Part shown: positions 6,916 through 60,426 of the stretch, piece after piece
How positions within the stretch are numbered: position 1 is the first letter of the stretch
How the letters are laid out: every line of letters begins with the position of its first letter
From: Bryoerythrophyllum caledonicum
Lineage: Eukaryota; Streptophyta; Bryopsida; Pottiales; Pottiaceae
DNA length: 64,000 nucleotides
Assembly (NCBI GenBank): GCA_963971425.1
Contig: OZ020523.1
Coordinates: 22,363,105 to 22,427,104 of the forward strand
Reading direction: 5' to 3'
Made by a program: the position numbers and the translations under genes
The notes under the pieces: generated by a model
The model's database searches: none
Told to the model about the DNA's origin: nothing
Seen by the model: the letters and a program-made list of their open reading frames with translations, nothing else

Positions 6916-9900
6916 TCATTGTGGAGCTTTAAGAGCCAATTCAATTTGAATGACTAAACTATCTAATTTTTGACGCATTATTGGTAATTGCTCATTCAAC
7001 TCATTGATTACTTCAATTAATGTTTTTCCCTTTGTTTGAGCATCTTTCAAATCTTCAGTAATGCTTTTCTTTACAACAACACCTTTCCACTTATTATTTT
7101 TAAAATCATCATGTTTCTTAGCAAGACGTTGATACATAGCAGTGGCTAAAAAAGCCCTTGACCTTGCATTGACAACCATTTTCAATCTTTCCCTACACAA
7201 ATCATAATACAACAAATCAATATATATTTATACACACATGATATTCATTTTTATTTCAATATAAATGGTTAAAACACGTACGAGCATTCTTCTTGTTGTG
7301 TAAGCACTGTACTGAGGTGATCATCCAAAATTGATACTCTATCAACTATAATAACCTTTTGTCTTTCAAGTTCTATCAGCCTGCTTACAAATAAATGAAT
7401 ATTGTTAGAAAAATTTAAACGTTTATGATAGAATAGAAATATAATCATTTATGGTTCAAGTAACCATAGTGACATTTCACTACAATGATTCATTGACATA
7501 AGTATCAAAATATTTTCTTGAAAAATAAAAATTACTATTGTATCAAGTCAAAAAAAATTCATAAATGCAGGTTTTGAATGAATGTAAAAAAATTCTGAAG
7601 AAAAATTACCTATCATTACATTCTCCAACACATTTAAATGTCTTTTTAATAGCTTTCTTTAAATCTCCATTTGCTCGAGCTAAACCTGCTTCAAAACTTG
7701 AAGGACCTTGAATTCCTTTTCGATGACATACTCCCTATAAAAAAAACTATCTTTAACAAAGTAATTGGCTATACAATACAATAAAACATATTAGTAATGC
7801 ATGTTTTTTGATGATAAAGAATTTTTTTTTAGTTTTAACGCAATATTTTATTATTTTTCTCCATATATATTTTTTTGAGACCCTAAACTCAATCTCAAAT
7901 AATTAAATACTTTCATATATTTGATGAAATGGTACTCTAATTAGATTGCACTAGATTCTATGAGTCTTTGAACTTTAGATTTAAATAATCTCTACAATGA
8001 TACAAAACATCATTTCTATAATTATTGTATTTAATCTATTTTAAGTATATCATAATGATAAAAAAAATCCATCAATAAGTCAAAACCTCCATTTTAGCTT
8101 CAATGACTTTGCGTGTGTCAACTTTTGTTTCCAAAGCATTTATCAATTTTTTTCTTTGCAAATTAAGACTATCAAGCTCATATTGCATCCGGTCCACAGA
8201 CTTTTTCAATCCTGCTAGTTCAGCAGCTCCTACGTTTGGATCTACTGCAGCCTGTAAGATTTCAAAGTACTCTATTATTTTACTAGATTTTCATCATGAC
8301 ATTCAAACATTCTTTGAATGAATTCAATTTCGGTATTTGAAAACATGTCGATCAAATTTTAAATAGAACAAATTTATAGTGATTTCTTCAATTTAAAATC
8401 AAAATTTAAACTTGTAATAATTTTTATTTATTTTCTTTAGTTGTAGAAAATTCATACATAATGTTTTAGTTTTAACTATATTACTTGCGTTTCAATCTCA
8501 AAAGATATCTTATATCTCCATAGCATCACATGGTGCTCAAGTTCATCTAAATGTTTTGAGGCATGCTCTTTTTCAGCTATTGAATTATCTAATTGAGATT
8601 GCAATTCAATCGTATTAGAAGCTAAATCTTTTAAAGCCAAATAATGTTGAACTTGCATATCTTTTGTAATATCAAGTAATGAGGTTTTTAAATGCTTGTT
8701 TTTTCCAAGTAAATCATTCAACCTATAATGAATGAAATTTTTAAAATTTGAAGAAAAAATTATGGTTTGAGTGAATATAGAATATTTTGATAACGATTAT
8801 TTAAATAATAGGAAACATTCAATAATACGGTATGTATCTAGTAGATGGAATAGATGTTAATATAATTAATTTCAATTCCAAAATCAACACAATATCCAAG
8901 TCAAATAATTCTTCAAATGAAATTATTATATACTATAATATTTAAATAGTAATTTTTAATATATTTATTGAATCGTAGAGTATCACCTAGTGATTAGGTT
9001 TTGTTTTTTGCCAATTCCATTATTTAGATCTTTAATAGCCTTTTCCAACATATTATATTGCGTATCAACTCTATATCTTCTTTGAGTCAATACACTATTA
9101 TCATAAGCTGCACGTTGTGCTTTCTCTGATAATGCATTTACATCATTTTGAAGAACAATAAGTGAAGTTTGTAAAGACAACCATAGCTTTTGAGATTCAT
9201 TAGATTCTTTCAATTTTTGATTAATTTCTATTTTCAAACTAGCTACCATAGCTTCCCATGGTGATGAAGCACCATCATCAAAATTAGCTGTTAATTTATC
9301 ATATTTCTTGTTTAACTTTATTATGTCTTTTTCTTTCATTTCTATGTCTCGATCTTTTTGCTTAATCTCAGCATCAAACTTTAATATGAGATTATATTTT
9401 GAATCAAGGTTTTCATTTACAGCTTTTAGTGCGGCAACTGTATCTTGGTTGTATGCTTTAATTGCAAGAATATCACACCGAATGCGGGAAAGTTCATGAT
9501 TCAAATCTATAGCCGTACTCTCTTCCTCTTTTACTAATTTTCTTAATTCCCTGATGTTTGTGACAATTGCTTCAGATCCTTTTTCTTCTAATGTCACTTG
9601 TTCTAGCAAACCGGTTAATACATTATTTTCAAATTCATGAGTCTTAGTTGTCTCTCTCCTATATTGTTTATTAATTTCCTGAAATGTATAAATACATATT
9701 TATATAATAAACCAATTGTATTTTCATTAGATGAATCATGTGAACGTTAATATGCAGTAATGTCTAGATATGTCAATACATTAAAAAATCAATTTGAAAA
9801 GTGAAAAATATATGTTACATGAATGTACATTACCTTAATTTCAGCTTCTATATTTGCAATTTCTTTTCCAACCAATTCAACATTGCCTTGTATCTTTTCA

Positions 9901-16155: not shown

Positions 16156-17869
16156 ATGGAGACTCTGGCGTTCAAATTCTGCGCACAGGGCTGCGTGAAA
16201 TGCAGCCCAGTGTCGTTATCTCTTCGGTCTTCCATTCTGTCCTCATCCAGGCGATCGGAGTGCTCCCCCTCCTCATCCTCCGACTTCTATGGCGACCACC
16301 ACCTCAAGGTTGTTGCCGAGAGAGGAGCACCGAGCAGGAGGAGCTCCAGGCGGGGGCCGCTCATTCGAGTGGTTTTTGTGGACGAATGTGGGTCTGAGAA
16401 GGCGAGGGACACCACCAAAGATCAGGAGTCCAAAGAAGTTGCGAATGGTCATTCTGTACCGGTTACTACCCCTCATGAGTCGGCACGATCAGTGCCCTCA
16501 GCAATGTGCTGTGGATCGACTCTGGATCAGCAATCTGATGTTGATGAGCTGTGGCTCACCATCCAGACGGAAGCCAGATTGGAGTCGGAGAAGGAGCCGG
16601 CTCTTGCGTCCTACTTCTACTCTTCGGTCATATCTCACAGGTTAGTTTTTTCCTCTACCTTCCGAAAAGATATGTAGTTTGCTTCTTTGAACAAATAAGA
16701 GTTACTTTATGCCAACCCCATGTGAACTCGCATTGCGGTGAAAGGATGGAGTTATGGCTGTAATATCTAGTTTTTTCCTCTGTAATGGTGAAGATAATAT
16801 GGAAGATACTTTGCACCAACAAACGGGACCATGATCTAGTCGAGAAAGGAGATGTAGTTCATTCCGTTGAAAGTGAATATAGCTCACGAATAATATCTAG
16901 TGTTTCCCTCTCCTGAAGTGAAACCATGATCTAATCAAGAAAATAGATGTAATCTACTTCTCTGAAAGTGAAGAGAACAACGAAAGGTACTCTGCCTGAA
17001 CCTCGTGTAACCTTGCTGCATTATGGTGGAAGCATCTGCAATGTCTAATTTTCTCCTCCTAGTTATGATCTGGTGGAGCAAGGACATGTAATTCATTCCT
17101 TGTACATTGCACCAGCTCCATTGTTTCCAGATTCTGACCTACGCCTCGGTCTGTCCGCTTTAGGTCCCTGGAGCGCGCGCTGGCGTTCCACCTGAGCAAC
17201 AAGCTGAGCAACCCGACGCTGCTGAGCACGCAGCTGTTCGGGCTGATCGTGGACATCTTCAGCAGCGACGCGGCCATCCGGCAGGCGGTCCGGGAGGATC
17301 TGCGCGCGGTGCGCACCAAGGACCCGGCGTGCAGCTCCTACTGCCACTGCCTGCTCTACTTCAAGGGCTTCCTGGCGTGCCAGGCGTACCGCGTGTCGCA
17401 CTGGCTGTGGAACACGCGCCGCTCCTCGCTGGCGTTCCTGATCCAGTCGCGCGTCTCCGAGGTCTTCCACGTCGACATCCACCCCGCGGCGAAGATCGGC
17501 TCCGGCGTGCTCTTCGACCACGCCACCGGGCTGGTCGTCGGCGAAACCGCCACCATCGGCAGCAACGTCTCCATCCTGCACAACGTCACGCTGGGGGGCA
17601 CTGGGTCCATCATTGGCGACAGGCACCCCAAGATCGGCGACGGCGTGCTCATTGGCGCCGGGGCCATCTTGCTTGGGAACATCAGGATCGGCGAGGGCGC
17701 AAAGATCGGCTCCGGGTCGCTGGTGTTGATCGATGTGCCGCCGCACACCACAGCCGTGGGCAACCCGGCGCGCCTGGTGGGCGGCAAGCAGAGCCCCACC
17801 AAGCTGCAGGAGATTCCCAGTGAAACCATGGATCATACCATCAAAGGTTGGTCTGATTATGTCATTTAA
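16156..17869 (+). CDS. SERAT: Serine O-acetyltransferase, plant type, probably plastid-targeted
   Basis: It transfers acetyl from acetyl-CoA to L-serine to make O-acetylserine, the carbon skeleton for cysteine. Two exons, 16156-16640 and 17164-17869, join through a GTTAGT..TTTAG intron within AG|G (Arg) and give 396 aa. The first ~60 residues are Ser/Arg-rich with few acidic residues, fitting a plastid transit peptide. Then come the N-terminal SAT helical domain (HRSLERALAFHLSNKL) and the left-handed hexapeptide-repeat helix. Conserved catalytic and substrate positions are visible: Asp and His in DIHPAAKIG (from residue 266), His in DHATG (~281), and GDRHPKIG. The last residues, SDYVI, end in the Ile that enters the O-acetylserine(thiol)lyase active site, so it should form the cysteine synthase complex. 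Exon 2 is strikingly GC-rich in AT-rich surroundings. The start was chosen as the first ATG of the frame. Confidence 0.93.
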
Positions 17870-19285: not shown

Positions 19286-22200
19286 TTTATCCTTGCCAAA
19301 TATGGTGGTGCTAAAAACATTCCTAGAATAAACAAAGCCCATTGCATTAGATCACCAATCACCCAAACAGTCTTTCTACAAAATGAAGCAAAAATTATGG
19401 TAAGAAACACATTCACGGATTTCCTTTTAGAACCCTCACCTTTGGAACAAGTGTGGCTACAAGAAACCCAAAATGATACAATAATTAACCACCTGATCTC
19501 CCAAAACTTTTACAAACACTTTCTATAGTAAATATTATTGGCTTAAAACAGTTTACACTAGTACACGGAACACACATTATGCACTACAATGACTTCAAAA
19601 CATTTCAAGTGAAACACCATCCAAATTTGTAAAGAGCGCTCTTAGTATTGCCCAACAACTATTTTGCTACCCTCCATGTCCTATTACATCCGCTTCACCA
19701 TGCCCTACATATCCAAACCCCTACACACTCAGGGACCCATATATCACCACCAACAACAACATCCAACCAAGAAACAACCCCCCACCAATTCACCCCGTCC
19801 AGTCCACCGCATCTATTCCTTCGTCCCCCCCAATACACATTATGAAAACCCATCCACATATTCCATAAATCTTATTATAGACCATAAACATAGAAAACAT
19901 GTTGACTCAAACAAAACTATAAAGAATGATACCTAATATTGAATATGCCAATGACAATACAATCAAAATACCTAAAACAAATGGTTACCCCAAGGGAATC
20001 GCTTCCCATGGCATGACCAAAACACCTCCATCCATAATACCATACAATTAATACAATACTATAAAAAACCTCCAAAAAATTCAACCTAGACACCATTCAA
20101 GCACACCACCTTCAACAGCAATCAAGTGATTCAAGATTTGTCACCCCACCCAATACCATTCCTCTCTTCAACATCCAGACAACCGAATGCAACCCTAAAA
20201 ACAATATCCTCACATCAACCAATACAATTTGAATTAACTATGGCCATGCACATATATACAAAGACAATAGAAGACATCTATTTACTAGACTCCAATGGTT
20301 ATGGAACCAATTTCATATCAAATTACAAAACCCCACAAACATAGAACCAATAATCCAACCATTTGAAATAGAAATAGTTTGGGTATTCCAAAGATATAAA
20401 TACTTCATTCCAAAGAATGACCCCATGAAAAACGCCAGATACACATACCCACACCCATTTTTAGCTCACTAATTTCAACCTTTAACCCCTAAAGACCCAA
20501 GAATCCCCTTAGGGGACTCTTGAAGGTTTGGGCAAGTTCCTATGGTGTCAATTTGTAACATTCCTTTTAAATTTTTTTACTGGAGATGGACATTGCTAAA
20601 AGCTTTGTGTGAGTCTAACTTTTTCCTAAATCCGACAATCTATGAAAAAGTTATAGGGTTTTGAATTTCAAACAGGGATAGCAGGCATGTCGAACACCTC
20701 CAAAAACTTTTGCTAAGACACTCTATTACATGTGAGATTTTCAATACTAAAAAATAATATTATTTCCTTTCATATTGTCAAAAAAAATCTCTTCTCGTAA
20801 GGGGAAAATAGCATAATAATCTAAGTCAAACATTTTCACACATTGTCACACTTCGTCAAACAAGGTACCAAAAAAACTTCTTCTTTTCCACATAAAACTA
20901 TGAGATCTTCATATTCTTACATTTTATTTTTTCTACTACGAGATGTGGTCTAAACCTTCATATTCACCATTCGGATTATCATTCTAAAATATATTTAGTT
21001 CACATATAACGAACAAATATATAAGGTGAATTTGCAATTTTTGAACCTCCACTCCATGCACATTTGTTTTGAATATGCTACACCCCTTCTCTACCTCTAA
21101 AAATTGGTGTTCAAGGCGAGAACACCATGATTAGCATGATGGTAATTTTTTCATACCTTGTGTAGTGCAAAAAATTGACACCAAGTGAAGTCAAAGTCTA
21201 TTGATCCATTCAACGCAAGGAAGGAAAAGAACAATTTTCTTGACTTCAAATACTACAATCTTTCAATCCATGTAGTCAAAGTTTATGAAATTTTTTATAG
21301 ACGTTAATCAAAAAGTCTTAATTTAGATCCTATGGTTAGATGTACAAATAAAAGGTTTTGATTACATCATTACTCATTGCACTAGAACGAGCAGTTTCGA
21401 AGTGTTTTTGGTGTCAAAATGCCTTGGGTCTTTAGGGCTAAACATCCAACACTCCTACTCCTCATCCCTCGTCACATGCTCCATGCAACTCAATAAGTCC
21501 TACTCACCCTTCAAAAGAGACAAAATTTTTGTCTCACAAGGAAACACTTTCAACCACAAATGGACTAGAAATGGTATTTCACACGCCCCCAATATTAAAG
21601 AAACGCAAAAAGCATTACATTGGGCAAGACTAGCAGCCAAAAATGACCCAAACTCTACATTTACTCTTATTGTCACACCAAACACTAATTAGTATCAAAA
21701 CTTTGACCCACATTTAAGTCCATTTCCAGATTCCCACATCATTGCACTATTTAGGCACACTCGGTACCATTCAAAGACTCCACTTTACCACCCAAATTAA
21801 TAAATAATCCTAGACTCGAGCCATCCACCATACAAATACTATGCATACACCATCAAAACAAAATATTGGTACTACAGAGCAACTTGCTACACTCACCTCT
21901 ACAACAAAAGATCTTAATGTACACCGGCTATACACAAAAATAGCTCCATCCACACCTCTCTAAACACGGTGAGTCACAACAAAAAATGGTCCCAAATTAA
22001 ATACATAAACATAGCACAAACTTACCTTACCGCACCACCTCCCCTCCCTACCTATCCAAACCACATCCCTTTAAGCTCCAACTCTGCATATAGCTACTAT
22101 ACAGGTGCTTCTTTCAAAGAAGCAACAGAAGCTAACCCAAGACATTGGCATAGAGAAAAGGCTGGATGTGGCAAATATAACTCCACCGAAGGAATAAAAC

Positions 22201-23205
22201 TATCCAAAAGACTACATGGATTTCAAAATATCCTTAGAGCAGAATTGATGGCCATCCATAAAACCCTCCAAATTATCACTACACAATACACTGATGAACT
22301 TGCACACATCTTTAAAGATTGTATAGATGTTTTGTATCAATAAACACATGGATAACACACCCTACCCTCCAAAATAGCCACCCCGACCAAGCCATACTAA
22401 CATCTATGGTTCAAATGCTACAAAATTGCACACAAATTATAACCCTCCATTAAGTGAGAGCACATGTCAATAAATGAACAAGCGGATAAATTAACCAAAT
22501 AAGGACTAGATAAATCCCATAGAGATGCCAAACACTTGCATGAACATGCCCACGCTACCCCATTCTACTTCCAAAGAGATAGCTGGTCTCCCATAGAAGA
22601 CACCGCGGACAAAGGCCTCATCAGATTTCTAGATAAATCTAAAAAACAAGATCTAATTAACAACCTAGATTTAATCTTGGAAAGTTTCCCTAACATAGAC
22701 AAATGGACCGGTAACAATAACATTGATAACAAAATCTCTACAAACTTTTGGAAAAATCCCACAATTACAAATTCATAGAAAACATGCTTTATCAAATTTT
22801 ACACTGGACAATATATGGGAAATGCCCACAAACAACTCTTCTATGGAATAAAACAATTTTCATCCATAACATGCCCAATATGCACCTCCACAGACCCGGA
22901 CACATGGCTACACATACTCCTCAAATGCCAAAACCTTCACATATATTCCCTAATTGTCAAAAGAAACAATAAGGCGGTATGGGAAATCCAAAAACTAATT
23001 GTTTTTTCAAACAAATCTAGGTGCTCTATACTTATGAACGTCGGAATCTTCAACAACAATCCGCAAGAGAACACCGTCCCTCCATGGTTACTTCCATGCA
23101 CATGTAGAATCAAAAGATGTCATTGTAATGCCAGATTTAAACCAGACATACTATGCGTCAAGGGACTACCATATAAAGACCCCCACCAAACTACATAAAA
23201 ACAAA
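19286..23205 (+). pseudogene. Second, fragmentary copy of the dual-endonuclease LINE
   Basis: It is collinear with 56,960-59,940 of the large LINE but both ends are missing, and stops and frameshifts run throughout. Recognisable parts are DFLLEPSPLEQ (19,410), the low-complexity linker (19,640-19,960), WARLAA (21,620), the RNase H region with HWHREKAGCGKYNSTE and ILRAELMAIHKTL (22,080-22,343), FRFLDK-type linker (22,536-22,778), the CCHC zinc motif CPICTSTDPDTWLHILLKC and the RLE motif RFKPDILCVKG (22,815-23,198). The RNase H 'TDC' is KDC here, so the catalytic Asp context is damaged. A 953 bp TTAA-family element interrupts it at 20,486-21,438. Confidence 0.85.
20486..21438. mobile_element. 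piggyBac-like MITE, family A, inserted in the LINE fragment
   Basis: The left end is TTAA|CCCCTAAAGACCCAAG; the right end is CTTGGGTCTTTAGGGC|TAAA, an inverted match of about 16 bp with the right TTAA mutated to TAAA. The flanking LINE sequences rejoin across it (LIS..IQHSYSSSLVTCS against LITSLNITHSYFSSPVTCS in the other copy), which fixes its limits independently. 953 bp, no transposase frame, so non-autonomous. Opposite in orientation to the copy at 61,105-62,030. Confidence 0.82.
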
Positions 23206-24606
23206 CCTTACTACAACATGCACATTATAGGAGTTTATTAAGCTATTCAAGCTCATAATATGTAGAGATTCCTAGGCCATACCCTCCAATATTTGTGATA
23301 GACCTAGATGATATCCGTGGATATCACCTCAAAAGGTGGCTAAATGCCTATGTTGCTTGTTAGCATTCTGGCTAAATTTCATCTAAATTTTTTTATTGTG
23401 TATAAGTAGTGACCCAATTTTTTGGTAGCTTTTCATCTAACTTTAGCCAGTTGAGGGATGGCTACCAACAAACCGCCTCAATGCTCCCTTTATTGAGACT
23501 CCATAAACTAAGATTTCTTTAAATCATGCCTCCCACTTTCCAAATTTGTGGAATATAGAGAGCCCTTTAAGTGACCCTTGGAAGTATTAATTAAGGCACT
23601 TTTGGCTCAAACTTCAATGATTCTTCCTGTTCTTTGCACCATCAATGAGGAGGTGTTGACACATGGGACAATAAAAGTCTAGAGAGTGAGTTTGAAGGCC
23701 TATTTAGAGGCTAACGGTTGAGTTGCAACGGCCTTCAAGTGGCCTCTAATTACCCTTCCTATTGAGGTTGAGGGCCTATTTTGAGGGCATGGGTTGACGA
23801 TGCTCTTATGGTAGGATGAGGCGGAATCCTAGAATTCTCCTCTCGCATTTGATTAGTAGGCATAACTATAGGACCAAGGTGATGATGGTCATGAGTCTTC
23901 TTGTGCATGGTTTTGAATGTGATTCTAACTTTTTCCAATGGTTGTGATTCAATCAACAAATTTTTAACTATTGTTTGAAACAATTTTTTTACTATTTTCA
24001 ATTGTTGGAACTTCAAGATGACAACTACAAGAATTACACTCAAAACCATTAGTAAACTTTGAGAACATGAATTGTAACATACATGCGTTTGGAGAGTGCA
24101 ATGTGGTTTTTTTTCCCTTGGGCAAACTGGATAAGCGTACCTTGAGTCAAGATTATGGCATACTTTCTACTACACATTGCATAAATTTTTATAATCTATC
24201 TTCTACCTTATGTCAAGTCATTGCACGCCAAAAATCACAAGTGATGAAGGTGTTTAGGATAAGAAAAATGGACTGGCAATGACTAGGGATATAGAAGGTA
24301 GCCATTGCTTAGAAAAGCAATTTTAAGTTTTATATAGAATTCATTAAAATACAAACGGTGGATAGAATCATTATGTCTCGTTAGTTGAAAGAAGAAAAAA
24401 ATTGAATAAAGTAAAATCCTTAATATCTACTCTATTTAACGTAAAAAGCTATGAGAGTTGCCAAGAACTTTCTTTCATTGCAACTTGCTTCAAAAACTTG
24501 CACTATTAAGCTCTACAATAGAACCAAAAAGAATAATTTGTAGAATCTATAAATCCACCTCCCTTTACTGTGTTCAACTTAAATAGAAGCTGAAGTAGGG
24601 AATGAT
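23206..24606. other. Intergenic, no gene seen
   Basis: AT-rich with no coding features that I can support. A minus-strand frame at 23.76-24.05 kb has no recognisable domain. Confidence 0.5.
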
Positions 24607-50800: not shown

Positions 50801-51377
50801 CCTCCTAAACCAAGAACAGAACTTCTCCCACAACCAGGTGGAAGGTGGACCCATCACCAAGGCGAAAGTAGACCATCAGTGGTTCCCTCTCTCCCACTGA
50901 ACCATAGGTTCAAACTTAGTGGTACAGTACGGTAGCCCAAGCAAGTCAAGGACGAAGACCACAACACACAAGTTGTAACCAAACCACCAGGTCATACTAC
51001 TTTCTCACCCCCATCACAATCTTATGTCATTTGGTGCCATTTGGTTTATTATGCAAACCTATGGACATCCAAACATTGCTTAATATCAAAAGAAACTTTT
51101 TCGGAGGTAGCCAATATTCTGGCACCTCTCATGTGTGTGGTCTTGTAAGGTCTAGTAGTTATCAACCTTCTAACCCACAAACCCTAGTATATAGGAGTCA
51201 AGTTTATGCTTTGCATGTTGATAGTAAGGATAATCTTCACTCCTTCTTGGCCACTTTAACATCAAAAAGCCTTCAACGCATGTTGTTGGGAGATGTTGAG
51301 TACAAGATGATAAGGAGAAAAACTGAAGTATTACTCTACATTCAAACTAGTAACACCTTTTGTTTTTATCTCTACAG
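47822..51377 (+). other. Long LINE leader with splice-like sites
   Basis: From ~48.8 to 50.9 kb the base composition is richer in GC and purines. Several overlapping frames are open (48,800-49,477; 49,694-50,671; 50,616-50,900), all very Arg/Gln/Ser-rich without a recognisable domain. Good donor sequences occur at 48,486 (CACAG|GTATGA) and 49,226 (TACAG|GTAAGT), and acceptors at 50,044 (TTCACAG|GAAGAG) and 51,377 (ATCTCTACAG|C, one base before the ORF1 ATG). It could be a 5' UTR, an extra ORF, or host sequence picked up at the 5' end. None of these is shown. Confidence 0.4.
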
Positions 51378-51378
51378 C

Positions 51379-52964
51379 ATGTCTCAGCCACAAGTGACCA
51401 CCACACCTTCCAAGAGGCTGTTTGTTCAAGTGATTGAAGAGAATGTATGTCGTGAGGATGGAACCCATAACACCTTAGTTGTGTCTACAGCCACCGAGAA
51501 AAAGGGGAGGACAACAAGTTTGCCGTCTACCAAATACTGGCTAGGCTTCCAAACGATGAATACAATTGCTAGAAACAATGGGGGCCTAAAAATCCCTATT
51601 TCTACCATAGAAGAGTTAGAAAAAAACGGATTGAGCAAACAACAAGTCGATGAGAGTTTGGTGGCGATCCCTTCATTTCCTTTTGTCCCTCAAGAAGAAT
51701 GGTCTTCTAAAAAGAATGATGGGAAAAGCGGCAATCATTTCAATCTCACCCAACTTCCAAGTGAAATTGAGGTAGATGAAAATGGTTATGCCCTAGACTA
51801 CCAAGTGTCAATACACTTTGAATTGGGAAGTCAGCTTTGGTCTAAACATGTTGTGTTAGAAATGGTGAAAACAAGACTCAGTGAGATGGAAATTCCATCA
51901 GGGACAAGGATTGGGGAACCAATAGCCATTTTTTGCCATCACCAATCCGACAATTGGACTGGTGTGGTAAAATTGCACCTAAAAACCCGGATATTGATGC
52001 CAAAGGGCTGTTGCAAGGGCGGAAACCTTTCATCCTTACCCTAAATGAAGGAATTCCACACCAAGGAAAAGTATGCAAGTCATATGATTCCTTGGCTTTC
52101 TCACACCTCTTGTCGGTGAAAATTACCGGCCCAAATCTTGTAAACATAGAACCCTATGATTTACATGCGGAGATTGTCAAAGATAGCTTTGCTAGGGGTT
52201 ATGATTTCGAAGTGACAGGGGTAGAAAAAAAGGGCTATTCTGAGTTTGCATGGGTCAAAACTCCCTCCCCGGAACAAGCTGCAAAAATTAAAGATTATAA
52301 AGTCTCATTTTGTAATGAGATCTTTGTACCTGTCTTTGCAACCCGGAAAATGGATGAGGATGAGATCGCAAAAAAGAATTGCCTAATTCTCATTGCCAAA
52401 AACCTTAACAAAACAAAAAATGAAAAAGAGCTTGAGGAAGGAATAAAATCCTTAATGGAGGAAGAGAATGTGGTGGACACATTCTTCAAGCTTGAACATG
52501 GCCGACATGTTGGAACTTGTAATATTGAATGCCTAAATGCCACGGTATACAAAAAATATGTTAGACAGAGTAAGAAACTCCATGGCAAGTATATCATGTT
52601 CACTCCCCACCCCAAAAGCTTGGATGGAAGCAACAAACCTAGCGCGGAAGAGCTAACAAGACTAGGATTTACGGATGTAAACGCAGCAGTAGCGAATGCG
52701 GTAATAGCCATGGTAAATGGCCCAAACAAAGGCAACGGTGTCACTTTACACCAACTTCGGAAAGAAATGAAAGCCATGAAAGGGGAAATTGTGGAAGAAG
52801 CAAGACAATACGCGGATATGATACAAACAAACACGATAAAGTCCCTAAGAGGGGAAATGTCGACCCTCCGATCGCAACTGATTGCAACCATCATGGCAGC
52901 GGAAACACAAGCATCAGAACGAGAGCAACGTGTCATTGAAAGCAAGATGGACACGTCAAACTAA
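51379..52964 (+). pseudogene. LINE ORF1 protein (one frameshift)
   Basis: Start ATG (MSQPQVTTTPSKRLFVQVIE) is one base after a TCTACAG acceptor; the frame is also open upstream. Reading is in frame until an AAAAA run at 51,981-51,985, where a -1 change is needed to continue (HLK then NPDIDAKGLLQGRKPFILTL) to the stop TAA-TAG at 52,962. Joined length is about 528 residues. The centre (KNCLILIAKNL...KELEEGIKSL) may be an RNA-binding fold, and the last ~75 residues are a coiled coil suited to trimer formation. Expected role: RNA-binding partner in the RNP. I recognise no specific family. The frameshift is probably a lost A; programmed slippage is the alternative. Confidence 0.7.
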
Positions 52965-53188
52965 TAGCGTTAAACAACGCTACAATAATAAATAATAATA
53001 TAGTATATATCTATACTATAAGAATACTAATCATCATAAACATTAAAAACATAAATATATTTACAAATAAAACCATAGTATATTTATATACTAATAAACA
53101 AATAAAAAACAACAACAACAACTACAACAACTACAACTACAGTAAACAACAACAACACTCCACACCCCTTCCTCTAGTAGCCATAAAT

Positions 53189-53248
53189 ATTACACATTGC
53201 AAACTATTAATCATACGTTGTGGAGACATAGAAACTAACCCCGGCCCA
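53189..53248 (+). other. 2A-type ribosome-skipping peptide
   Basis: In the ORF2 frame the codons before the first ATG read ITHCKLLIIRCGDIETNPGP. This fits the 2A consensus D(V/I)ExNPGP, with the usual hydrophobic stretch upstream. In known 2As the ribosome fails to join the final Gly and Pro, releasing the upstream product. The frame is open from 52,940 without any ATG, overlaps the end of ORF1 by 25 bases, and encodes an Asn/Gln-rich spacer before the motif. Confidence 0.85.
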
Positions 53249-56200
53249 ATGCCAAACATCTTCCTTAATCATCCAAAAATACACAAAAGATTATCAAAAA
53301 TATACTTCATTCCGAATACTATAAAACTCCACCCCAAATATCAACACCTAGCATCTTCATTTGCCCCACTTCTAAAAAATAATCACATACTGCACCAAAC
53401 CTACTCCACCCTCTATCCCAACATTTCCCGCTACATACATCAAAAAATCAACCACCCGTCCACACATATTTTATTCGCCATAATCACCACCCTCCACCCT
53501 TCAATAGAAGAATGCGACAATATCACCAGCCAACACTCTACCAACACAAACCTAACAAATTGGACAAATACATTACTAAACACTCTATCCTCTTTACATA
53601 ATCCCCCCGAAAGACATATAGATACACTCCACCCATACACTAAATTCCTAGAGGAGAACCAACACCTCTTTGAACACAAAACCTCTCTGTACAATGATCT
53701 ATATAACTTTATTCATAGCCAAACCCCACCCCCTTCTCCCGATGAACTACAACTAAAATTTCCCTACTTCCCACAGAATCTCATCCTTGAAGCTCTTCGA
53801 TGCTTCGAACCAATTCATGCTTACACACACCCCACCCCAACACCCACCTTCACTCCCCCTCAACTTTGTAACTACGACAACATATGCTACAGAAACACAT
53901 ACATAATTACATGGAATGCCTCAACGCTAAACACTACTTTACCATGTATCCACAAACTAACCACCTGCACCAACACACCACCCGCCATAATCGCCATACA
54001 AGAAACTAAACTAACCGCTACTAAATCCACAAAATACATTCAAAAAACATTCCCCGATTACAAACTTATATTTAATAACACTCATTCTCTCACACGATGC
54101 ATCCAACAAAGAAGGCCATATACACCGGCAAGAGGAGGTCTACTCATGCTCATACACCAAACATATGCCTTCCCCGGGAATATTACTAAAATCCCTACCC
54201 CGGCCAATATATCACCATACCTTCAAATTATTGAAATCAATAACCGACCCTTCCAACCATGGCTCATCCTTCATCTATACATGCCCTTGCATATAGAAGA
54301 CTCCAGGCTTATTCCAGAGATCCAAAATTACATCACTTTACAAATAAATACACACACTAACCATACAATAATACTTTGCGGAGACTTTAACCGAGACATA
54401 GCCCTTATTGGAAGACAAAACGGAGGAGTTATCACCCCCCCATTTGGCATAGACTATCAATGGCAAAATTATACGGATGACCGAGAATTAAATTTAATCC
54501 CAACCGATACACAATATTCTTGTCAGGGTGGACTTGATTACACACACACTAGCCTAATTGATGGATTCTACATCAAAACACCTAACCATACCCGTTATAC
54601 ATCTACCACCAATACCACAACCAAATTAAATTCGGACCACTTCCCAGTCCAACTCGATATACCTCACAACACCCTCATAAGTAGACCTCTCACAACCATC
54701 AACTCAAATAACATTAAAATACTAAACCCCATCCCAAAAGAAAACCTTGACAACTTTAATACAATATTCTTCGAAAAAATCTCACTACAAATAGACTTCC
54801 TTACATATATCCTTTCTAACCAACAACACCTCACACATATACAATGGCAAGAAGCTTGCGCAGCTCTTGACAAACTTATTAACGAAATTTCTACTACACT
54901 AGAAAAGACTTGCTAAGCGCCCCCAATCCCACAACTAACACCTAGAACCTCAAAACAAGGGGGGTATCTCCCAAGAAAACTAGCCAAAAAGTGGAAACAA
55001 CATCTTGCCACATACCACATTATTCGCAAAACAATTTATATTGCTAAAACCAACCAAAATTGGCAAACCCACCCCATACTCTCCGAACTACAAAACCTCC
55101 GATCTCCCCAAATCCCACAAGTACCACCACCCAACACCCCTCACGAAAACTGGCTTAAAGACATCGCAATCATTGCAAAAACCGCCAACAAAGAAGCTCG
55201 AAAAATTACTACAAAATATGCAAGAGAATGTGTCAAAAAAGCCATTTCTAAGTATCATCAATTATACAAAACTAGCCCAAAAAAGATTAATAGAAAAGTC
55301 TTTAAAAACAACACAAACCTACCACTAGACTGCATTTTAGACCAAAACAATAACATACTAACAAGCCCAGATGACATCGCAAACGAAATACATCTTCAGC
55401 AATCCATAAACAATAGATCAACAATCCCCCCATGCCACTTTCAACCACAACACACACCAACATGCACATGCGGAGTTAGACAATACCCGTGGCACGATTT
55501 AGACGGATTTACTATTGATAAAAGAGGCGAACCAACAACACCCCTCCACACATATTATAACAGAGACACATACAACATGTGCCTAAAAAATCTGGGAAAC
55601 AACAAAGTCCCTGGCCCGGACCATATACCCAACTCAATTCTAAAAAATATGCCCCCAAGATTCCACGATCTTCTATCATTATTTTTCCTTCATTGTTACA
55701 AACAAAAATCCATTCCCGCATCTTGGAAAACAAGTCTAACAATCTTATTATACAAAAAAGGCAACCCATCCGTACTAACTAACCACCGACCTATTGCCTT
55801 AGCTAACACCATTTACAAATTATATACTAGTACACTTACATCCATGTTATCGGCCTACGGAGAAATACATCAAATATTACACGAAAGCCAAGAAGGGTTT
55901 AGAGCCGAGAGAAGTACCACACGGCAACTTCAAACCCTCATTGCCGCACTCAAAGATGCAAAATACACCAATAAAGACATTTATATACTCTATATTGACT
56001 TCAAAAACGCATTTGGTTCCATTGACCATCCTCGACTGCTAGCCGTTATGAGTGATCTTGGAACCCGGAAGACGCAGTCACACTAATTGGCAATATATAC
56101 TCCCAATCTACCACTACATACGTGAAGAATTTTTTGGTAAAACACGCCCCATCCCCATCCAACGTGGTACCATCCAAGGCAACACATTGAGCCCATACCT

Positions 56201-59200
56201 CTTTATTATCTTTCTAGAACCTCTACTGAGATGGCTTCAAAGAGGTAATAATGGCTACACATTTGGAACCTCTAAAGTCACCGTAAATTCGGCCGCATAT
56301 GCCGACGATCTAGCGGCCATCTCCGGTCGTCTTAAATCACTCCAAATTCAATTAGACAAAATAGACAAATTTTGTCTATGGACCGGGATGGAACTCGGGG
56401 TCCAAAAATGTGCCGTAACCGGATGCCCAAATAAATCCAAAATAAATCCGACCGCCTTCAAAGCCCTTATCTAAGCTACCAATATCCACTATCGTAACCA
56501 ACCAATTCCGGTTCTCAACCAAAACCAACCTTACATATACCTTGGAATAAACCTAGTCCCATCTCTAAAATGGAAAATCCAAATTCACGCCACTACTACA
56601 AAACTTATTAAACAATGCAAGGAACTTACACTTTGTCCAGCCACACTGCAACAAAAAATAAAAATGATTGATACCGTCATACGTCCGGGTATCTCATATA
56701 GTTTCTATGCGGTCCCGTATTCCATGCCCGCCATAAACAAACTTGACAAAAAAATCATAGCCATACAAAAGAAAGTATGCGGACTCTCCAACTGTACGCC
56801 CAATGTCATAACACAACTCCCCCACGAACTATTCAGATTAGAAGCTTTTTCCCTCAAAAATGCCTACCTACGTTGCATTGGAGAACAACTCCAGAATGCA
56901 CTTAACGATAAAGGCCGACTAGGACTAATTTACAGTGGACTCCTTCGGCACATCCTTGCCATTTATGGAGGAGCTCAATACCTCCAAAGACTTAAAAAAT
57001 CTGATTGTCTTTGGTCTCCCATTACCCGCACACTTATTTTATTCAAAACAGAAGGTCAAACATATCTAAAAAGCACACTAGAAGATTTCCTACTAGGCCC
57101 CGCGCCGCTCGAACAAAATTGGGCAAATGAAATACACAACCTCCCTAGACTTGACCGACAATTATCCGCCAAACTCCTACAAAAACTTTTCTCTGCAAAC
57201 ATTACTGATCTAAAACAAATTACACTACCAAATGGAACACACCTTATGGACGACAAGAGCTACAAAACACTCTATGGTACTCCTCATAAATTAATAAAAA
57301 GTGCACTAAATATTGCTAAACAATTATTTTGTCACCCTCCATGTCTCCCTACATGCCCCAACCCTTGCACCACTCACGCCTCACCATACACACTTAAAGA
57401 CTCATACATCATCAATCACAATGACAACCACCCCAACATCAACCCTCTAGCAATCCCTCCAAACCCGTCATATTCACGACTATATGCTCCTCCACCACAT
57501 ATATTAAAAAATCCTTCCATACACCCAATAAACAACATAACCGCGCACAAACATAGAAAACACATTGACTACAATAACATAAGCAAACAATATACGTCAT
57601 ACCTATGCCATTGGTCCCACAATAACAACACCTACGCCAAATGGCTCCCACAAAGAAATCTTTTCCCTTGGCACAACCCAAATATTTCCCTCCATAATAC
57701 CGAAATCCTCACACAATACTACCTCAAAACTCAAAACAATTATTACCTAAATATCATACAATTACACCACCCTCAAGCACAACCTTGAGATAGAAGATTT
57801 GTCACGCCACCTCTTATTATCCCCCTTCTTAACTTCTTTACAACTGAATGCAACCCAGAAACGGACATCCTAGCACAAACAAATACAATCAAAATACAAC
57901 AAGACAATGCCCACATATATGAAGGTAATGGTAGACATCTAATAACCATACCACTCCCTAGACTACAATGGCTATGGAACCAATATTATAATGCACTACA
58001 AACCCCCATTAACATTGAACCAATACCCAATCATTTGAAACCAAAATTGTTTGGCTATACCAAAGATATAACTACCGAATACCCAAAAATGACTCCTTTA
58101 AAAATGCACACTACACATTACCCGATCCTATCTTAGACTACCTTATTACATCTCTGAACATCACACATTCATACTTCTCATCCCCCGTTACATGCTCCAC
58201 AAAAATCTCAAAATTTTACTCTCCATTGGAACGAGATAAGATTTTTGGTTCTCTTGGAAAAGCTTTTGATTATAAATGGAGTGGAATAGGCCTTGCACAC
58301 CCTCACAACGAAGAAGAAACACAACAAGCAACACACTAGGCACGCCTAGCGGCAAGTAATGATCCCAACCACAATATCACCATTATTATTACTCCCGACA
58401 CTCACTGGTACCACAACCCTAATCCACACTTAGGCCCATTCCCGGACTCTCACATCATAGTACTATTTGAAGCGGACTCTATGACATACAAAGAACCCAC
58501 TATACCACCACAAGTACAAACACCCCGCCTTGAACCAGCAAACCTACGTATCCTATGTATACATCAACAAACTCGTGAAATATGTACTCTAGAAAACCTC
58601 ACTCATCTCACTTCGATAGCTAAAAATCTAAACATTAATAAGGTATACACCGCCATTGCCTCTCCCACACCCATTCCAACCGGTGTAAACCGCAACAAAA
58701 AGTGGTCTAAAACCCCCCACACAAACATCTCCACATCACCAATTACCGAATTGAGCCTCCCCCTCTCCTACTACCAAACTAATACTGACCTTAAATTTGA
58801 CCCCAACTTCAACTACTACACTGACGGCTCCTTCAAAGAACCAACCGAAGTAAGCCCGGGACATTGGCACCGTGAAAAAGCCGGTTATGGGATATACAAC
58901 TCAACCAAACAAATTAAATTAGGCAAAAGACTACATGGACTCCAAAATATCCTAAGAGCCGAAATGATGGCTATACACAAAACCATTAAAATAATCACCA
59001 CTCAATACCCAAACGAACCAGCTCACATTTTTACAGATTGCATAAATGTATTATATCTCCTTATTACACACATTAAACACCCTACTTTACACAACAGTCA
59101 CCTGGATAAAACTATCCTTACATCCATGGTTGCAATGCTCCAAAACCGTACACAGATTACTACACTCCATAAAGTCCGAGCTCATGCTAATATCGACGGC

Positions 59201-59604
59201 AATGAACAAGACGACAAACTAGCAAAGGAAGGAAGGGAAAAAACCCACAAGAATGCCTAACACCCATACGAACATGCCCATGCCATCCTTTATTACTTTC
59301 ACATATATGAATGGCCCTCTATGGGTGAAACTCCCGATAAAGGCCCCATACGATTCTTGGACAAATACCTCAAAAGACATGATCTTGTAAAAAAGTTAAA
59401 AACCTATAAAAACTTACAGAAAACTTCTCCAATATTGATAAATGGACTGGCAACCCAAACATTCATAATGTACTATCCAACAATTTTTGGAAAAACCCCA
59501 TTGTAACGGATCCACAAATCACATGCCTAATCAAATTCCGCACCGGGCAATATATGGGCAACGCCCGCAAACAACTCTTCTTTGGAATAGAAAGATTCCC
59601 TACA

Positions 59605-60130
59605 ATTACATGTTCAATTTGCAACACCACGGACCCGGACACATGGCTACATGTCTTACTCAAATGCCAAAACCCCCATATACACTCACTAATTGTTAAA
59701 AGACATAACAAAGCCGTATGGGCTATCCGTAAACTACTTATTTCATCAACCAAATCCCATTGCTTCACTCTCATGAATGCCGGAACCTTTAATGACAACC
59801 CACAAGAAAATACGGTCCCCCCTTGGTTATTACCATGCATATGTTGCACTCAAAGATGCCACTGTAATGCAAGATTCAAACCGGACCTGTTATGTGTTAG
59901 AGGACTTTCATACAAAGACCCCCCACCAAACCACATAGACCCTAGTCTCACCATTCAGTTTATTGAATTCACATATTGCAATGATAGATTCTCTCCGGAC
60001 ACTATTGCAAACAAAACAAACAAATACCAACCATTACTCAACCATATTCAAGCTCTAGGATGGAAAGTAGACCCCTACATTGTCATTACCGCGGGTGCTA
60101 GAGCCACCACCTTCATTCCCTCAATGACAA
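59605..60130 (+). other. CCHC knuckle plus restriction-like endonuclease (RLE) region
   Basis: A Cx2C...HxxxxC knuckle is followed by a second Cys cluster (CICCTQRCHC), then KPD, a hydrophobic strand ending in E (FIEFTYCND), Lys/Tyr (NKYQPLL) and a GW..D...V..GARAT tail. This matches the PD-(D/E)xK layout of R2/Dualen C-terminal nucleases. The KPD part also survives in the 23.1 kb fragment. Both endonucleases are readable in this single element. Confidence 0.75.
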
Positions 60131-60426
60131 CTCTTGAAGAAACATTTAAAATCCCCATCACTTCAATCAAAACCACCTTCTCAAATATTAACATTATTGC
60201 AATCCAACATGCTATGTCAATACTCCTGCATAAACGGAAACTTGAAAACAACCAACCCCTTCGTGACACATCGAATCCCCCTTCATAGACCTACACTTGT
60301 ATTTTCACTGCACACGCCCTCCCTATCTTAGAGACTTTGGGGACCTTGGATCCCTTGATATTGGTCACTTGTTACTGGTACATAGTGTCCACCCTCGAAA
60401 GGGGGAAGTAGTTCCATACTACTAAC

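Follow-up and report, generated by a model that had tools for sequence, protein, structure and literature searches.

Peptides of the 2A (StopGo) type are said to have been recognized by Heras in 2006 in the trypanosome element L1Tc, and reportedly by Odon in 2013 in LINEs of the APE type from multicellular organisms, sea urchin among them. In those elements the 2A separates the element's proteins. Natural use of StopGo is ascribed, in the relevant sections of two papers, to viruses, trypanosomes, and some animals (PMC4981915, PMC5972666), and a survey from 2026, in its passages on plants, found nothing to indicate that plant viruses use StopGo naturally and records that 2A tags work in plants (PMC12846837). 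The section of the same survey on motif classes describes, and in part tests, a group with an L-rich upstream region ending in (A/S/C)G before the D. In cardioviruses StopGo is combined with a -1 frameshift; as far as the portion of the account dealing with the pair goes, StopGo precedes the frameshift, which lies just beyond it (PMC5009743). Dualen/RandI elements, according to the parts of four papers that concern them, carry both endonuclease types and are found in green algae (PMC4640811, PMC3747384, PMC3636483, PMC8226300), and the LINE section of a review on the elements of land plants lists L1 and RTE as the plant LINEs (PMC9033089). No 2A of a plant LINE was reported in any of the literature matches listed, a comparison that did not take in the principal earlier papers on LINE 2A peptides.

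The window analyzed here, a stretch of 64,000 nucleotides from the moss Bryoerythrophyllum caledonicum, contains a non-LTR retrotransposon that resembles the L1Tc and sea urchin LINEs in having a 2A core. It differs from them in that the host is a plant, the cores number 1,717, ORF2 is more than 2,200 aa long, and a long microsatellite linker is present; furthermore, the 2A is located behind an ORF1 stop that lies in another frame, mostly without an upstream AUG. The 2A/StopGo peptide ITHCKLLIIRCGDIETNPGP occupies 53189..53248 on the forward strand and was recognized through translation, pattern match, and conservation among copies. Within it, GDIETNPGP is encoded by 53222-53248 and the core GACATAGAAACTAACCCCGGCCC by 53225-53247, with the bond predicted to be skipped lying between Gly (53243-53245) and Pro (53246-53248). 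The ORF2 body starts immediately 3' of the 2A with ATG CCA AAC at 53249, and the 2A frame contains no ATG between the last upstream stop and the 2A. A degenerate 2A-core pattern matched the window here and nowhere else, and matched none of 100 shuffles; the motif is real and not a product of chance. It conforms to D(V/I)ExNPGP as well as to the expanded form (D/G/C/N)(V/I)ExNPGP. The hexapeptide preceding the D is LIIRCG in the window and commonly LIILCG or LIILSG among copies, LIILCG matching, by eye and unscored, the L-rich class ending in (A/S/C)G as characterized in the section of the 2026 survey devoted to it (PMC12846837). With motifs 2 and 6 of the viral L-rich sequences in that section the peptide shares the L-rich character, C/S-G before the D, (V/I)ExNPGP, and D at p12, and it differs from them in being encoded by a plant retrotransposon.

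Searching the host genome (437 Mb in 894 contigs) with the N-terminal part of ORF2 yielded 67 scored copies out of 5,709 candidates, and junctions were compared for the window and the 66 others; 65 of the 67, the window included, could be anchored, L036 and L067 being the exceptions. GDIETNPGP was exact in 60 of the 67 and NPGP was kept in 62, while the non-exact anchored copies carried, one each, GDIDTNPGP, GGIETNPGP, GDRETNPSP, GDIETNPSP, and GDIETNPRP. Because the ORF2 query included the 2A these copies are not a blind sample, and because all are related and come from one genome they are not independent. Genome-wide counts of the core are free of the query bias: exact D-(V/I/M)-E-x-NPGP cores numbered 1,717, compared with 2 for the reversed pattern and 397 for a control pattern in which the Gly codon was replaced by any codon not starting with G. 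The 2A was followed by ATGC in 64 of the 65 anchored copies (by GTGC in one), and genome-wide ATGCC came directly after 1,616 of the 1,717 cores. Even the divergent copy L075 retains LSGDIEKNPGP-MPN. The preliminary description had placed a 2A motif directly before the ORF2 body of a plant LINE and looked to other genomic copies for its conservation. The motif was confirmed at this position, its NPGP core persists throughout most copies, and the plant setting is borne out by a serine acetyltransferase gene of the window (17138-17869, +), for which the best match, 4n69 (362 bits), presumably the soybean enzyme, exceeded the next chain, 1t3d (255 bits), which we take to be bacterial. Another gene in the window gave a weak, below-cut-off match to an At5g58720-type UBA domain, and a CCDC40/FAP172-like motile-cilium gene was seen at 8983-9699 (-), according to which the host plant probably has motile sperm.

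A separate observation concerns a subfamily in which, among the pairs listed, two 2A-like cores lie 494-511 bp apart. In eight such pairs, all on G000:C1, the upstream core is degenerate (DMETNPRP) and the downstream core intact (500274/500784, 3291150/3291661, 3580432/3580942, 7056261/7055751, 8787556/8787046, 10433371/10433881, 11508119/11507609, and 12482885/12482391), and in one listed pair on the same contig, 6319950/6320460, both cores are intact and each is followed by ATGCC.

The ORF2 remnant of the window, delimited by ORF reading, extends over 53246..60288 (+), begins P-M-P-N, and is interrupted by stops from 54914 on. An APE-type endonuclease at 53969..54649 (+) was matched by Exo_endo_phos_2 (E 3.2e-5) and Exo_endo_phos (E 6.3e-5), both below the Pfam gathering score; of four copies, only L018 exceeded the cut-off for Exo_endo_phos_2 (29.5 bits vs 27.4). 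The first part of a reverse transcriptase (RT) is found at 55754..56071 (+; RVT_1, E 1.5e-11), after which the frame is broken, and the four intact copies L024, L017, L018, and L015 possess the full RVT_1 domain (E 1.4e-27 to 6.6e-30). An RNase H domain follows at 58811..59236 (+; RNase_H, E 1.3e-11) and was detected in all four intact copies (E 9.3e-11 to 1.8e-12). Between RT and RNase H, at about residues 1584-1720 of ORF2, these same four copies exceeded the cut-off for PCIF1_WW (PF12237; E 1.4e-10 to 4.8e-8), which we take to be the family of the cap-adenosine N6-methyltransferase; the direct match to the PCIF1 structure 6irx was weak (E 0.055), and the literature matches listed included no report of a PCIF1-like domain in LINEs. 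Genome-wide, 150 PCIF1_WW places were scored out of 2,614 candidates. Thirty-three of the listed places, among them G000:C8:15561129, C10:1426394, and C11:2058331, have one score, 50.6 bits, and the same 3,087-aa open frame, which suggests a recently amplified subfamily; the three places compared on C1 (3626835, 7120052, and 8816568) are each 4,770 bp downstream of a 2A core.

At its C terminus (59410..60285, +) the translation of ORF2 displays C-x2-C-x9-H-x4-C and a KPDLL...EFTY stretch, motifs that tentatively resemble a restriction-like (PD-(D/E)XK) endonuclease. Sequence comparison of this region with solved structures returned no matches; the motifs suggest that a second, restriction-like endonuclease may be present there. 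A decayed fragment of a related LINE, comprising RNase H and the C terminus, was noted at 21500-23400 of the window; it is 73-76% identical to parts of 58.8-59.7 kb and retains the CCHC and KPDIL motifs. The best structure matches of the L024 ORF2 were R2 chains (111 bits), followed by 8c8j (65 bits), presumably human LINE-1 ORF2p. In Dualen/RandI LINEs the RT is placed between the R2 and L1 groups. No relatives were found among viral contigs scanned with the RT alignment. With an APE endonuclease upstream of RT and an RNase H, the domain set points to putative membership of the Dualen/RandI group. The elements in the descriptive sections of the papers on that group (PMC4640811, PMC3747384, PMC3636483, PMC8226300) share with this one APE and RNase H, a possible C-terminal restriction-like endonuclease, and a host of the green lineage; those sections make no mention of a PCIF1-like domain, a 2A, or the -1 arrangement, and the host here is a plant and not a green alga.

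Although it lies upstream of the ORF2 AUG, the 2A core is under strong purifying selection. Among 27 representatives less than 96% alike, drawn from the 56 copies with the full 102 nt, pN/pS over DIETNPGP was 0.075, as against 0.31 for the ten codons preceding CGDIETNPGP and 0.20 for the 14 codons that follow it. Read in the two shifted frames, the core region gave 6.3 and 2.3, and the ten preceding codons about 1.0 and 0.8. Selection on the encoded residues argues that the 2A frame is translated.

ORF1 of the window copy was traced over 51280..52964 (+) through the ORFs 50920-52044 and 51885-52964, with one frame change between 51885 and 52044. It stops at TAA (52962-52964) in a frame that differs from that of the 2A, and the 2A therefore does not stand between two in-frame ORFs. 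Position 51280 corresponds to the Met opening a 561-aa form of ORF1 seen in other copies (e.g., L024), for which Pfam gave no matches above cut-off in the L024 form. The ORF1 frame is open over exactly 1,604 aa in 7 of 78 listed matches, so that the real start is uncertain and ORF1 may far exceed 561 aa. The last residue of ORF1 was placed by tblastn in 52 of the 65 anchored copies, with 4 matches falling short and 9 copies giving none, and the counts given here rest on these placements rather than on a pattern presupposing the site. CAAAC-TAR ends ORF1 in all 52, copies in which the identity of ORF1 to the query along the aligned part ranges from 39 to 97% (100% being the window itself). In the window the proposed recoding site is GTCAAAC followed by the stop TAA (52955..52964, +). 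The heptamer is GTCAAAC in 48 copies, GACAAAC in 3, and ATCAAAC in 1, the stop is TAA in 40 and TAG in 12, and the last codon is AAC and never AAT, preceded by TCA in 49 and ACA in 3. L034, where the match stops five residues short of the end, has GTTAAAC TAA.

About 1,600 2A-ATG-CC cassettes are present in the genome, and the arrangement upstream was examined in the 67 copies. In the 52 scored for frame, which were chosen by an ORF1 match reaching the last residue, ORF2 is offset relative to ORF1 by -1 in 36, by 0 in 13, and by +1 in 3. Among those at -1, 33 of 36 have no ORF2-frame stop throughout the spacer, the exceptions being L025, L049, and L065 with a single stop apiece. Going upstream in the 33 open copies, the first stop met in the -1 frame is 19-178 nt away from the ORF1 stop (at -25 in 12 of them), and in the window the open ORF2 frame begins 25 nt ahead of that stop and continues into the 2A; openness thus starts where ORF1 ends, with -1-frame stops common upstream of that point and rare after it. 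An in-frame ATG before the 2A is present in 9 of the open copies and absent from the other 24, indicating that in the latter the region would have to be translated by means other than ordinary in-frame AUG initiation. Ten copies, from 20 long ones and the window, have an ORF2 unbroken over the stretch examined, and eight of the ten show the open -1 arrangement; L014, with an unbroken ORF2, yet has an offset of 0 and four spacer stops, and for L013, likewise unbroken, tblastn found no ORF1 end. Copies not at -1 (16 in the tblastn-anchored set, 18 in the pattern-anchored set) are read as probably decayed, since the closures of their frames resemble small indels: a stop in the A/T-rich part ends the -1 frame of ORF1 in 14 of the 18, and in L035, L044, L048, and L055 that frame runs on through the microsatellite and is closed shortly before the 2A. 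The layout is that of a -1 shift, with a downstream ORF in the -1 frame overlapping the end of the upstream ORF. The heptamer departs from the classical X XXY YYZ, since in G-TCA-AAC, G-ACA-AAC, or A-TCA-AAC only the AAC part fits; as the first triplet is not a single-base run, only the AAC half would re-pair well, and the site is better said to work like a -1 shift than filed as a classical one.

The spacer between the ORF1 stop and ORF2 is 287 nt long in the window (52962..53248, +) and encodes LIALNNATIINNNIVYIYT...NNNNN...QQQHSTPLPLVAINITHCKLLIIRCGDIETNPGP in the -1 (ORF2) frame, where it has no stops, with 17 and 8 in the other two frames; among copies its length varies from 261 to 1,361 nt. 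A small hairpin, AGCGTTAAACAACGCT, follows the ORF1 stop (52966..52981, +) and folds with -7.1 kcal/mol in the window copy. Across nine copies folded it is present in several and weaker or different in divergent lineages, and known RNA families gave none over threshold in the window. The window sequence further contains the A/T palindromes AGTATATATCTATACT (53002..53017, +) and AGTATATTTATATACT (53077..53092, +) and short CAA/AAC-type repeats over 53108..53156 (+; 53108-53122 and 53145-53156). Palindromes like AGTATATATATATACT recur in the spacers of copies and encode IVYIYT-like peptides in the -1 frame. Where the window has short repeats, other copies have a long (AAC)n or (CAACCA)n microsatellite translated as polyAsn, polyGln, or (His-Asn)n; spacers of this kind are seen in L024, L010, and L020, among others, with up to 322 Asn in L024. 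As the units comprise 3 or 6 bases, changes in length by whole units preserve the frame. The Asn, Gln, and His-Asn tracts are predicted to form a prion-like tail on the transframe product.

Stop codons in the A/T-rich part of the spacer were counted in 25 distinct sequences from 31 open pattern-anchored copies, three copies with a stop having been dropped. Over 1,504 codons the -1 frame contained 0 stops and the other two 182 and 105, while dinucleotide shuffling, repeated 300 times, gave a mean of 157 and no count below 118. No conservation of the spacer was found at the peptide level, pN/pS being 0.78 in the A/T-rich part and 1.17 in the first nine codons. We read the linker as a translated segment whose residues hardly matter and which has only to stay open. 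The first nine codons are less diverged (pS 0.099 vs 0.258 further on; pN 0.115 vs 0.202) and are read as a short stretch probably conserved as RNA near the ORF1 stop. An intron between ORF1 and the 2A was considered and rejected, since an intron need not stay stop-free in one frame.

The reading to which we assign a probability of roughly 0.6 is that ORF2p of the LINE is the product of two successive recoding events, a -1 change of frame at the ORF1 stop followed by skipping at the 2A. Most ribosomes would terminate at the TAR stop and release ORF1p, while a minority would enter the -1 frame at the invariant CAAAC-TAR, most simply if, with the stop codon in the A site, tRNA-Asn moved one base back from AAC to pair with AAA. 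In ribosomes that slipped, the spacer would yield a low-complexity linker (polyAsn, polyGln, or His-Asn) whose main constraint is to remain open. At LIILCGDIETNPG-P the nascent chain would prevent formation of the Gly-Pro bond, freeing an ORF1p-linker-2A chain, and the ribosome would continue to produce a free ORF2p starting P-M-P-N. The slip, the skip, and the resulting stoichiometry are inferred from sequence: the rate of recoding would set the ratio of ORF2p to ORF1p, and, owing to the 2A, ORF2p would carry neither ORF1p nor the linker. On balance we also favor the wider formulation of stacked recoding, in which a -1 slip or a short hop opens a microsatellite-built linker ending in StopGo, such that ORF2p would be rare and always free of ORF1p. 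Like the cardiovirus pair, as presented in the section cited (PMC5009743), these would be two recoding events side by side on one mRNA, but here the frame change would come first and give access to the 2A. The preliminary description had proposed that ORF1p and ORF2p are made from one mRNA by skipping. The conserved and selected 2A core at the ORF1/ORF2 junction bears out part of that description, skipping itself being a prediction from it; skipping alone would not suffice, since ORF1 ends at TAA or TAG with ORF2 at -1 in 36 of 52 copies, and a further step, of which a -1 frame change at the ORF1 stop would be the simplest, must precede it. A simple polyprotein, with ORF1 and ORF2 in one frame and the 2A between them, was rejected on the same stop and offset. 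Against double recoding stand the 16 of 52 copies that are not at -1, the 3 of 36 at -1 that have a stop, the arrangement in L014, the non-classical heptamer, the lack of conservation of the downstream hairpin in divergent lineages, and the 9 of 33 open copies that do have an in-frame ATG.

Termination at the ORF1 stop could instead be followed by reinitiation, with subunits scanning an unstructured A/C-rich spacer and restarting at the AUG behind PGP, the 2A being a relic or rarely translated. The near-invariance of that AUG (64 of 65 anchored copies; 1,616 of 1,717 cores) agrees with such a restart, as does a mild depletion of AUG in the A/T-rich spacers (19, vs 28 +/- 3.3 in shuffles), and for SART1 and mammalian LINE-1 the section of PMC5972666 on coupled reinitiation presents it as established or proposed. 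It would leave the amino-acid selection on the 2A and the stop-free -1 frame unexplained, however; the context of the AUG looks poor (C at -3, C at +4), and spacers of up to 1,361 nt would seem long for a restart of this kind. We consider reinitiation unlikely. Quite unlikely too is non-AUG or internal initiation in the spacer or just upstream of the 2A, giving a short leader-2A-ORF2 protein in which the 2A would trim the leader or act as a signal-like N-terminal 2A, comparable to that reported for sea urchin NLR proteins. The lack of an AUG before the 2A in 24 of 33 open copies would be accounted for in this way, and the passages of PMC4981915 on the subject describe an N-terminal 2A that has a dual role in targeting. 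Initiation so close to the 2A needs no frame open as far as the ORF1 stop, yet the frame is open to at least 19 nt before that stop in 33 of 36 copies, and no reason is given for the invariant CAAAC-TAR.

The invariant ORF1 end and the open frame could also be joined by a longer step than a slip. GTTAAAC (52969-52975), inside the hairpin, is a near repeat of the recoding site located 14 nt downstream in the -1 frame, and in the 36 copies at -1 the 7-mer at the end of ORF1 is repeated at +14 exactly in 19, with 6 of 7 bases in 12, and with 4 or 5 bases in the remaining 5. Bypassing would have tRNA-Asn leave the AAC before the ORF1 stop and land on the AAC 14 nt downstream, from which the linker and the 2A would follow, and the low divergence of the first nine codons speaks in its favor. 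The landing place, however, is AAG in L021, a copy with an unbroken ORF2, AAA in L064, AAT in the divergent copies L018, L019, and L042, and CAC in L016, and a one-base slip is simpler; we regard bypassing as very unlikely. That the 2A and the open spacer are relics, inherited from an ancestor and having no present function, is scarcely credible. The window copy is broken and many copies have decayed, as a relic would lead one to expect, but the pN/pS of 0.075 over the core speaks against it, the frame and the core are maintained in copies whose aligned ORF1 parts have diverged by as much as about 60%, and the arrangement is kept in eight of the ten copies with an unbroken ORF2.

If the proposed series of -1 recoding and skipping is correct, it would represent a natural and massive use of StopGo in a plant, and a case in which one recoding signal is reachable only through another. 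Double recoding, should it hold, would explain how a two-ORF LINE sets a low ratio of ORF2p to ORF1p, with the exact site given, and multi-gene expression in plants could then draw on a set of 2A peptides evolved there. The spacer itself is a clean evolutionary signature, in which the frame has been kept while the sequence is little constrained.
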